Origin: Modestobacter sp. VKM Ac-2984
Lineage (GTDB): Bacteria > Actinomycetota > Actinomycetes > Mycobacteriales > Geodermatophilaceae
Assembly: GCF_026967985.1 (NCBI RefSeq)
Contig: NZ_JAPVBJ010000004.1
Span: 186,001-250,000 of the forward strand
Reading direction: 5' to 3'
DNA: 64,000 nt
A program made the translations under genes and the position numbers. The notes under the pieces were generated by a model, which was not told the origin of the DNA, did not search any database, and saw only the letters and a program-made list of their open reading frames with translations. Numbering within the stretch: the stretch's first letter is position 1; each line of letters opens with the position of its first letter. Of this stretch, positions 15,611 to 18,562 are shown piece after piece.

Positions 15611-16249
15611 TCATCCTGCGGATGCGTGGACGACGACGTTGTCGGTGTAGCTGCGGCGGCTGCGGTCGAAGGCCCCGCCGCAGGTGATCAGCCGGAGCTC
15701 GGCGCCGGTGGTCGGCCCGTAGACCTCCTCGGCCGGGAAGTCGCCCTTGGGGTGGGCGGACACCCGGGTCACCGTGAACGTCACCGGCCGGCCGTCCCCG
15801 CCGGTGACGACCACCTGGTCCCCGGCGGCGAGCTCCTCCAGCCGGGCGAACGCCCCGGGGCCGGTGTGGTCGTCGACGTGCCCGGCCAGCACCGCCGGCC
15901 CCACCTCGCCGGGCGCCGGGCCGGCGGTGAACCAGCCCGCCTGCTGGACGTCGGTCGGGGGCACGAGGGCGCCTGCGTCGTCCACGCCGATCGGCACGAG
16001 GTCGGCGTCCACGCCGATCGCGGCGATGCGCAGCCCGACCGGGGGCGCCACGGTCGGCTCCGCCCGCACCGCCGCAGCGGGGCCGAGGGGCACCGCGGCG
16101 GGCGGAGACGCCACCGCGGTGCTGTGGACGGCGTCGGCGGGGCGGTCCACCAGGGCCATCCCACCGGCGAGGACGGCCACCGCGAGCAGCCCCGCCCGCA
16201 GCGCCGTCAGCCGGTGGCGGCCCGGTCGGGAGAGGGTCGAGGTCGTCAT
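15611..16249 (-). CDS. Class F sortase
   Basis: A 212-residue membrane-anchored transpeptidase: N-terminal signal-anchor (about 17-35, LRAGLLAVAVLAGGMALV), then a Pro/Ala linker and the sortase barrel from about residue 70. The catalytic triad is visible: His in VLAGHVDDHTGPGAF, Cys in ELRLITCGG, and Arg in DRSRRSYTDN. Class F sortases attach surface proteins in actinobacteria; their substrates are poorly known. It lies ten bases after the DUF4397 gene, whose C-terminus looks like a sorting signal, so that protein is the obvious candidate substrate. Confidence 0.93.
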   Translation of the reverse strand: MTTSTLSRPGRHRLTALRAGLLAVAVLAGGMALVDRPADAVHSTAVASPPAAVPLGPAAAVRAEPTVAPPVGLRIAAIGVDADLVPIGVDDAGALVPPTDVQQAGWFTAGPAPGEVGPAVLAGHVDDHTGPGAFARLEELAAGDQVVVTGGDGRPVTFTVTRVSAHPKGDFPAEEVYGPTTGAELRLITCGGAFDRSRRSYTDNVVVHASAG

Positions 16250-16259
16250 CGTCGGCAGG

Positions 16260-17120
16260 TCAGGACGTCGGGGACCCGGGACGGGGGCGGCGCAGGCCGA
16301 CGGCCAGCAGCAGTGCGGTGAGGGACAGGGCGGCGAGAGCTGCGCGGCCGACCGGGGGGCCGTCGTCCGTGGCGGTACCGCCGGCGCCGGCCTCCACGCC
16401 GCCGACCGGCACGACGCCGGGGGCCGCGGCGTCCAGGGTGGTGGTCACGGTGAGCCCGCCGTCCGGGCGGTCCAGGACGAGCACGGTGCGGACCGATCCG
16501 GCGGCGAGGTCGACCGGGAGCTCGACCGGGGTGCCGCCGGAGTCGGTGACGACGAGCGTCCCTGGGCCGCCGGGCACGTCGACGGGCTCGGTGGAGTCGG
16601 CGAACGCCAGGTCGGAGGCGAGCACGGTGCCTCCGCCCAGAGCGACGTCCAGTGGGGAGCCGGTCGCCGCGGCGTTGACCACCCGGACCCGGGCGGCACC
16701 GGCCGGCGGGAGGGTGAGGTCGTCGGTGTCGACGGCGAGGCCCAGGTCGGCGAACAGCCCGACGCCGGCGACCGTGGTCGCGGTTCCCGGCGCCACGGTG
16801 ACGGTGGTGGCGAGCACCGGGGGGCTGGCCTGGTCGGCGCCGGCCGCCCGCACGCTCACGGTGTAGCTGCCGGCGGGGACCCGCTGGTAGGCCGAGACGT
16901 CGCCGTAGCCGACCGCGGGCAGCAGGACCTGGGCCTCCGGGGCGGCGACCGAGTCGATGGAGGCGTCGACCGACGGGGTGTCGGGGGAGAGGTGCATCAT
17001 CCGCACCAGACCGGTGTCCTCCGCGGGTGCGGCGGACGCCGCCGGGGCCGCCAGCAACCCGACGGCGCACAGGGCGGCGCCGAGCACGGCGATCAGCGCG
17101 GTCCGAGACGACCCGGGCAC
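16260..17120 (-). CDS. Secreted DUF4397 protein with C-terminal anchor
   Basis: A 286-residue exported protein with a signal peptide (about 1-30, ending APAASA). Two DUF4397 beta-sandwich repeats follow, beginning VRMMHLSPDTPSVDASID and VRVVNAAATGSPLDVAL. The C-terminus has PVGGVEAGAGG, a short polar spacer, a hydrophobic helix (LAALSLTALLLAVGL) and the basic tail RRPRP, the layout of a sortase sorting signal but without LPXTG. GTG 17120 is chosen because GGAGAGGA lies just upstream; 17153 is a longer in-frame start. Confidence 0.9.
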   Translation of the reverse strand: MPGSSRTALIAVLGAALCAVGLLAAPAASAAPAEDTGLVRMMHLSPDTPSVDASIDSVAAPEAQVLLPAVGYGDVSAYQRVPAGSYTVSVRAAGADQASPPVLATTVTVAPGTATTVAGVGLFADLGLAVDTDDLTLPPAGAARVRVVNAAATGSPLDVALGGGTVLASDLAFADSTEPVDVPGGPGTLVVTDSGGTPVELPVDLAAGSVRTVLVLDRPDGGLTVTTTLDAAAPGVVPVGGVEAGAGGTATDDGPPVGRAALAALSLTALLLAVGLRRPRPGSPTS

Positions 17121-17200
17121 GGTGGTCCTCTCCGGTGGTGGTCGATCACCCACGCCCGGCCCGGTGCTCCGGACGGGTCCGTCGAGGAACAGGGCGGCGG

Positions 17201-18562
17201 TCAGCCCCGGTTCGCCGGGGGAGGACCGCCCTGCCCGGCCGGCACGGCCGGGGTCGGCTGGACCCGGGTGGCCGGACCGCGGGCAGGGACCGGCGGCGTC
17301 TGCCGCACGCCGGGCTGGGGTCGCTGCTGAGGTGCCTGCTCGGCCGCCGGCTGCTCCGCCGTCGTCCGGTCCTCGACCGGAGCCTGCTCGACCGGAGGCT
17401 GCTGGGCCGGAGCCTGCTGGGCCGGCGTGCTCTGGGTCGGGTGTGCCGGCGCCGGGGTCCGGACCGGCTGCTGCACGCCGGCCGCGGGTGCCGGCTGGGC
17501 CGGTACCGACTCGGTCCGGACCGCCTGCACCGGGACCGCCTGGGTCTGGGCGGCCGCCGGCTCCGGGGTGGGCTGCGTGGCCGGCGCCGCCGGGCGCTGG
17601 TCCGCACCCGACTGCTCCTCGGTCGGCTGCTCCTGCTGCGCGGACTCCGCCGGGGCGGGCTGCGGCGACCGGGCTGCCGCACGCTGCTCGGCCGGAGCCG
17701 CCGGCTGGGCGTCCTCGGCCGGCTGCGGCTGGTCGGACAGGTCGGGCAGCCGGCCGAGCAGGGTCCGGACGTCGGCCAGCCGGCGGGTCAGGTCGTCCCG
17801 GACCTTCCCGATCGCGGCCGCGGCGGCCTCGGCCTCGGCGACCGTGCGGTGGGCCCGCTCGTCGGCCTCGGCGACCCGCTGCTGGGCGGTGGCGACCGAG
17901 GCCTGCTCGCGCTCCTGCTCCAGCCGGGCGGCCTCGCTCCGGCGGGCGCGCTGGGCGATCTCGAAGTCCTGCTCGGCCTTGGCGCGGCGGGCCTGGGAGT
18001 CGTTGTCGAGCCGGGTCACCCGCTCCTGGGCCTTGGTGACCAGGTCGTCGGCGCGGGCCTGGGCGACCGCGGCGATCTGCTCGGCGTGCTGCCGTGCCTC
18101 GGCGACCAGGCGTTCGGCCTCGGCCCGGCTGGCGGCCGAGCGCTCCCCGAGCGCGCGCTCCTCACCGGCGATCCGCTCGCGGATCGCCTCCGCCTCGGCG
18201 GCCACGGCCGCCTGCAGCTGGGCGGCCTGCTCCTCGGCCGAACGCCGGATCTCCGCCGCCTCGTCCTGCGCGAGCTGCAGCATGTTGGAGATGCGCTCGC
18301 CCATGTTCTCGAACGTGGGGGCGCTCGCGCTGGCGGCCCGGCGTCGCAGCGACTCGACCTCGCCGTGCAGCGCCTGCAGCTGGCGGGCGAGGTCGGCCGA
18401 CCGGGACACGGCGGCGTCCCGGTCGGCCAGCGCCACGTGCAGGTCGGCGTCGAGACCGGCCAGCGTCTCGGCGACCTGGTCGCGGTCGTACCCCTTGCGC
18501 ACCACGTCGAAGGTGGGGCCGCCGTCGCGGTAACCGAACTCGTCGTCGCGGGGGTCGCTCAT
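17201..18562 (-). CDS. Scy/FilP/DivIVA-like coiled-coil protein
   Basis: A 453-residue protein. The N-terminal FDVVRKGYDRDQVAETL resembles the DivIVA membrane-binding segment. A long coiled coil follows (about 45-270) rich in Ala, Glu, Arg and Gln. The last 180 residues are a disordered Pro/Ala/Gln tail. This is the architecture of actinobacterial polar-growth scaffolds (Scy, FilP, Wag31). As I recall, in Streptomyces coelicolor scy lies next to mce, a thiolase and meaB, the same neighbours as here except that ccr is inserted. A role in polarity or cell shape is inferred. Confidence 0.85.
   Translation of the reverse strand: MSDPRDDEFGYRDGGPTFDVVRKGYDRDQVAETLAGLDADLHVALADRDAAVSRSADLARQLQALHGEVESLRRRAASASAPTFENMGERISNMLQLAQDEAAEIRRSAEEQAAQLQAAVAAEAEAIRERIAGEERALGERSAASRAEAERLVAEARQHAEQIAAVAQARADDLVTKAQERVTRLDNDSQARRAKAEQDFEIAQRARRSEAARLEQEREQASVATAQQRVAEADERAHRTVAEAEAAAAAIGKVRDDLTRRLADVRTLLGRLPDLSDQPQPAEDAQPAAPAEQRAAARSPQPAPAESAQQEQPTEEQSGADQRPAAPATQPTPEPAAAQTQAVPVQAVRTESVPAQPAPAAGVQQPVRTPAPAHPTQSTPAQQAPAQQPPVEQAPVEDRTTAEQPAAEQAPQQRPQPGVRQTPPVPARGPATRVQPTPAVPAGQGGPPPANRG

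Follow-up and report, generated by a model that had tools for sequence, protein, structure and literature searches.

Recognition signals have been assigned for sortases of classes A to E (PMC5148588). Class F sortases of free-living Actinobacteria differ in having no assigned signal, and in 2026 the physiological role of the class was still called unknown (PMC13251363). The sole class F enzyme to have been studied, SrtF of Cutibacterium acnes, resembles the enzymes considered here in its literature assignment to class F, but differs in being reported as a housekeeping enzyme that uses LPXTG (PMC7913060, PMC13257024). In Actinoplanes missouriensis, the neighbours of two class F sortases (srtF1/AMIS_11010 and srtF4/AMIS_36440) were described as having a signal peptide, a transmembrane helix and a basic tail, but were not considered as substrates, since no pentapeptide was recognised (PMC13251363). 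The closest described signal is the NCBIfam model NF058571 (GVDTG_CTERM). A literature search for GVDTG sorting, for DUF4397 with a sortase, and for natural sortase-substrate fusions found no paper on any of them. A class F sorting signal is therefore catalogued in NCBIfam, yet undescribed in the papers searched. The preliminary description of the present locus called the substrates of class F sortases poorly defined; given the curated model, their signal is not entirely undescribed.

The locus analysed here lies in a window of 64,000 nucleotides from Modestobacter sp. VKM Ac-2984, and its features are listed in Table 1.

Table 1 Features of the DUF4397/class F sortase locus, in window coordinates
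Feature	Position	Strand	Details
Class F sortase gene	15611..16249	(-)	212 aa; ATG at 16249
DUF4397 protein gene	16260..17120	(-)	286 aa; GTG start; putative substrate of the class F sortase
PVGGVEAGAGG sorting motif	16377..16409	(-)	Predicted cleavage between A and G, between 16389 and 16388
DUF4397 transmembrane helix (GRAALAALSLTALLLAVGL) and basic tail (RRPRPGSPTS)	16263..16349	(-)	Read from sequence
DivIVA-like protein gene	17201..18562	(-)	First in a conserved DivIVA-like/DUF4397/sortase block; read from sequence

Both open reading frames reported in the preliminary description were confirmed, with the sortase gene ten bases downstream of the DUF4397 gene in the same direction, and the family assignments are supported by Pfam and NCBIfam. 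The DUF4397 protein matches PF14344 at 5.2e-35 (121 bits, gathering cut-off 30.6 bits). The sortase matches the Pfam Sortase family PF04203 (4e-22) and the class F sortase model NF033748 (179.1 bits, above the curated cut-off of 166). An in-frame GTG at 17153 is a possible alternative start for the DUF4397 protein, which has a signal peptide, two β-sandwich domains and a C-terminal sorting signal. AlphaFold models the two β-sandwich domains followed by a disordered tail (pLDDT 84.6), the nearest solved folds being the extracellular domains of the PepT1 and PepT2 peptide transporters (TM-score approximately 0.55). The DivIVA-like gene lies 5' of the pair, an order that is kept in the fusion loci discussed below, and there may be a connection with polar growth.

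The C-terminus of the DUF4397 protein runs from VVPVGGVEAGAGGTATDDGPPV through GRAALAALSLTALLLAVGL to RRPRPGSPTS. The tail is thus as first described, with PVGGVEAGAGG, a hydrophobic helix and RRPRP, and contains neither an LPXTG nor a LAXTG pentapeptide. It resembles NF058571 in C-terminal layout and in the position of the motif relative to the transmembrane helix, as judged from the name of the model and the scores, and differs in having GVEAG where the model has GVDTG. The match is weak, spanning residues 248–280 (counted from the upstream GTG) and scoring 22.7 bits in a protein scan and 27.0 bits in a genome scan, both below the cut-off of 29. The LPXTG signals of classes A and C and the LAXTG signal of class E share the arrangement of motif, transmembrane helix and basic tail, and can be placed in register at P1 (Thr or Ala) and P1' (Gly). 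They differ from the signal found beside class F sortases in having Leu at P4, where the latter has Gly, Ala or Ser, together with Gly at P5 and Pro at P7.

We hypothesise that the downstream class F sortase acts on the DUF4397 protein as a dedicated substrate, which it cuts between A and G and joins to the cell wall, and give this reading a probability of about 0.82. Once exported, the protein would be retained in the membrane by the helix and basic tail at its C-terminus. PVGGVEAG would be bound by the sortase in the LPXTG register (P4 Gly, P3 Val, P2 Glu, P1 Ala, P1' Gly), Cys190 would attack the Ala carbonyl with cleavage of the Ala-Gly bond, and the DUF4397 domains would be handed to a cell-wall amine. 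The cut is predicted at GVEA/G because the motif [GAS][VAP]x[TA]/G, in which the slash marks the cut, aligns in register with LPXT/G.

To define the motif independently of the NCBI model, a search was seeded from the sortases only, by taking the nearest upstream same-strand open reading frame whose C-terminus carries a helix and a basic end. Such a frame is present for 112 of 141 sortases, and 88 tails were left after removal of near-duplicates. The pattern P.G...[TA]G occurs in 76 of the 88 (mean 2.9 and maximum 10 in composition-matched shuffles), and the pattern P.GG...G.GG of the preliminary description in 38 (shuffled mean 0.07); LP.TG and LA.TG occur in none of the 88 neighbour tails. 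Genes immediately upstream of class F sortases thus encode a conserved core, P-x-G-[GAS]-[VAP]-x-[TA]-G, before the helix and basic end. Column frequencies were taken from 79 tails aligned on a pattern in which Gly is fixed at P5 and P1'; they show Pro at P7 in 68%, Gly, Ala or Ser at P4, Val, Ala or Pro at P3, and Thr (55%) or Ala (31%) at P1. The most hydrophobic stretch follows the end of the motif by a median of 12 residues. It had been suggested that PVGGVEAGAGG could be the recognition motif; the core of this sequence is conserved, but the xGG downstream of it is less constant. The signal PxGG-V-E-A-G is very probably the tag cut by the class F sortase, to judge from its recurrence beside such enzymes across the Actinobacteria and within natural fusions.

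The motif is found in Modestobacter, Geodermatophilus, Klenkia, Actinoplanes, Micromonospora, Amycolatopsis, Nonomuraea, Lentzea, Cellulomonas and Acidimicrobiia, carried beside class F sortases by DUF4397, CHRD, ice-binding and DUF4331 proteins. Lack of conservation among sortase/DUF4397 pairs had been named as what would refute the original suggestion, and the motif is kept across many genera. Three pairs in annotated plasmid records associate a DUF4331 protein with VPDGGVGAGLGG, an ice-binding protein with IPKGHPETGAGG and a CHRD protein with MPSGGADTGVAQ. Two Actinoplanes relatives (L124 and L127) have the tails PQGGVATGLGG and PRGGVATGGGG beside class F sortases.

The association was also counted with NF058571. 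Across 59 genomes from the same family, 71 GVDTG tails score 29 bits or more, and 63 of them lie directly upstream of a class F sortase on the same strand and within 1.5 kb, a placement expected by chance for approximately 0.2% of tail matches. The remaining eight have no listed sortase nearby, and some of these are at contig ends. A sample of 149 genomes taken from the phylum contains 28 with a class F sortase; the tail occurs in 14 genomes, every one of which belongs to these 28 (p approximately 2e-12). The pairing and the signal are real and general, and the layout of the window tail, which likewise has the motif, helix and basic end at a C-terminus beside a class F sortase, recurs phylum-wide beyond chance. 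Two related large genomes from the same class (G081 C1:7855419-7856897 and G181 C1:1254187-1255658) each have a gene with a GVDTG-type tail that is divergent from a class F sortase and approximately 0.9 kb from it.

Alternatively, the tail could do no more than hold the protein in the membrane, its Gly-rich stretch being a flexible spacer; the pairing would then reflect co-expression of surface genes, with the sortase acting elsewhere. Gly/Ala-rich spacers are indeed common in GC-rich genomes, but such a spacer would hardly account for 76 motif matches where shuffling gives 2.9. Nor does it readily fit the controls. DUF4397 proteins in genomes without a class F sortase lack the motif, and bear other tails: in one family (L246-L249) they end in [LMI]PDTGG, a transmembrane helix and RRR, which is LPXTG-like, in genomes that have no class F sortase and 4 to 12 other sortases each. 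The tail therefore tracks the class of sortase and not the DUF4397 domain; that the motif might be a property of DUF4397 itself was considered and rejected on these grounds.

The motif is also conserved where the membrane anchor is not. Several ice-binding-like proteins encoded upstream of class F sortases (L009, L205, L206, L207, L212, L213, L214, L217 and L218) carry VPVGSVD[TA]GDGS within approximately 15 residues of the end, with no helix, and the final residues after it are unrelated to one another; the transmembrane part of NF058571 is missing from these tails. Furthermore, 16 distinct proteins (L084, L171, L219-L223, L225-L232 and L234) combine DUF4397 with a class F sortase in a single reading frame. 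All of them have the motif between the two domains, as P-x-G-[GAP]-V-[EA]-A-G in 15 and as PSGALRTG in L084, although NF058571 reports no fusion linker at E ≤ 0.01. In some fusions two hydrophobic segments remain between the motif and the sortase; in others these have been lost, leaving 22–37 residues from the motif to the sortase domain. Eleven fall in one clade and five are scattered. Class F sortases apparently without a partner are in part explained by ice-binding neighbours that lack a helix and in part by fusions. The fusion of an enzyme to its neighbour is strong evidence that the two share a function. Since the motif persists both without a helix and in fusion linkers, we regard the proposal of a mere anchor as very unlikely. 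A DivIVA-like homologue is present at 14 of the 16 fusion loci, compared with 5 of 45 two-gene loci, many of which have short flanks, and in L171 a DivIVA match lies in the reading frame.

Less expected among these results are the fusions, the substrates without a transmembrane helix and the absence of the catalytic Arg. The window sortase has an N-terminal transmembrane or signal anchor and a sortase domain from approximately residue 66, and its AlphaFold model (pLDDT 92.8) has a sortase fold that matches solved sortases in the PDB; a sequence search found no solved class F relative. H124 and C190 are invariant in alignments. The canonical His-Cys-Arg is incomplete, in that N204 sits at the usual position of the catalytic Arg on strand β8, the end of which reads N-V-V-V-H-A, compared with R-L-I-V-H-A in the class E sortase of the same genome. 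This register was read back from the conserved Ala that ends the strand; MAFFT placed the class E Arg earlier, in a loop, at a site where class F has no conserved residue. Among 222 unique cores the β8 position is Asn in 210, Asp in 3 and Arg in 9, the nine Arg cores being a separate divergent group, all below the class F cut-off. The absence of the Arg from the class F active site contradicts the statement that His-Cys-Arg is common to all sortases (PMC13257024).

With Asn in place of the catalytic Arg, catalysis must differ or be slow. In other sortases this Arg contacts backbone carbonyls of the substrate, namely P4 and P3 in S. pyogenes SrtA (PMC9520033) and P3 in class E (PMC5148588), and therefore a basic residue from another strand could substitute for it. 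Two positions come into question. One is a Lys 22 residues before the Cys (K168), shared by 208 of the 213 Asn/Asp cores but showing no conservation in the Arg cores. The other, an Arg four residues before the Cys (R186), occurs in 187 of the 213; it was dropped as a substitute, a minority having Val, Ala or Thr there. From its conservation, the Lys appears the better candidate. The Arg more likely goes with the choice of substrate near P5/P4: where it is replaced by Val, Ala or Thr (L005, L094-L096, L251, L252, L268 and L275-L291), P.G...[TAG]G is found in 0 of 18 tails, compared with 118 of 133 otherwise. By parsimony, this position has changed only approximately four times on the tree, and the association is therefore weak evidence. 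Tails adjoining these minority class F-like sortases include PTRVDAGSAG, PTAVNTGS and GVPAGTGG. A wider picture is tentative, and we would give it somewhat less than even odds: that class F proper is a separate catalytic branch, marked by Asn on β8, Lys at -22 and usually Arg at -4, which reads the Gly-rich [GAS][VAP]x[TA]/G and has repeatedly been fused to its substrate, so that in some cells a single-chain protein might cut itself loose and join the wall.

The altered active site also bears on a second alternative, that the sortase cuts the motif but hydrolyses the product, releasing the DUF4397 protein to the medium. With Asn for Arg in all of the compared class F enzymes above the cut-off, the acyl-enzyme could resolve differently, and substrates without a transmembrane helix would be released anyway. 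However, the sortase fold, the His and the Cys are all intact, and wall-anchored proteins usually show this order of motif, transmembrane helix and basic tail. We therefore consider release highly improbable. Gene pairing, conservation of the motif, the change of tail with the class of sortase and the natural fusions are observed, and from them we infer cleavage at the Ala-Gly bond and covalent attachment to the wall.

The Modestobacter genome contains five sortases. Four match class F, three of them over the cut-off, the fourth (C18:17223) scoring 122.7 bits and falling below it. GVDTG-like tails adjoin all three sortases over the cut-off, one of them being the tail of the DUF4397 protein analysed here. 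One locus (L006) encodes an uncharacterised CHRD-like protein ending in TPAGGAETGAGS, a transmembrane helix and RRR beside a class F sortase; the CHRD label rests on likeness to an annotated CHRD neighbour elsewhere, the frame itself having no match in Pfam. Another (L009:1474-2565) encodes an ice-binding-like protein ending in RVPVGSVDTGDGSTADVPPARPTR, with no transmembrane helix, beside a class F sortase. In a second cluster, L250 (G000 C18:9945-19733), three DUF4397 matches lie beside a divergent class F-like sortase, and two of them end in GVPGGSAG and a transmembrane helix. The remaining alternative, that the tail is a substrate for another of the five sortases, such as the class E enzyme on contig C18, while a class F neighbour without the canonical Arg is incidental or inactive, merits almost no weight, given that class E uses LAXTG (PMC5148588), which is in no neighbour tail, and that tail and class F sortase co-occur and fuse.

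Anchoring of the DUF4397 protein by the class F sortase remains our preferred reading. The points against it are the Asn at the position of the catalytic Arg, the score of the window tail below the NF058571 cut-off, the use of LPXTG reported for the C. acnes enzyme, and the deletion of all four class F sortases of A. missouriensis, which gave no visible phenotype (PMC13251363).

The Gly-rich motif would explain the neighbours of the A. missouriensis class F sortases described in PMC13251363, and a defined class F signal turns these set-aside proteins into testable substrates. The signal also suggests an orthogonal tag for sortase-based protein ligation, and it allows the prediction of substrates in the many Actinobacteria that have several class F sortases.
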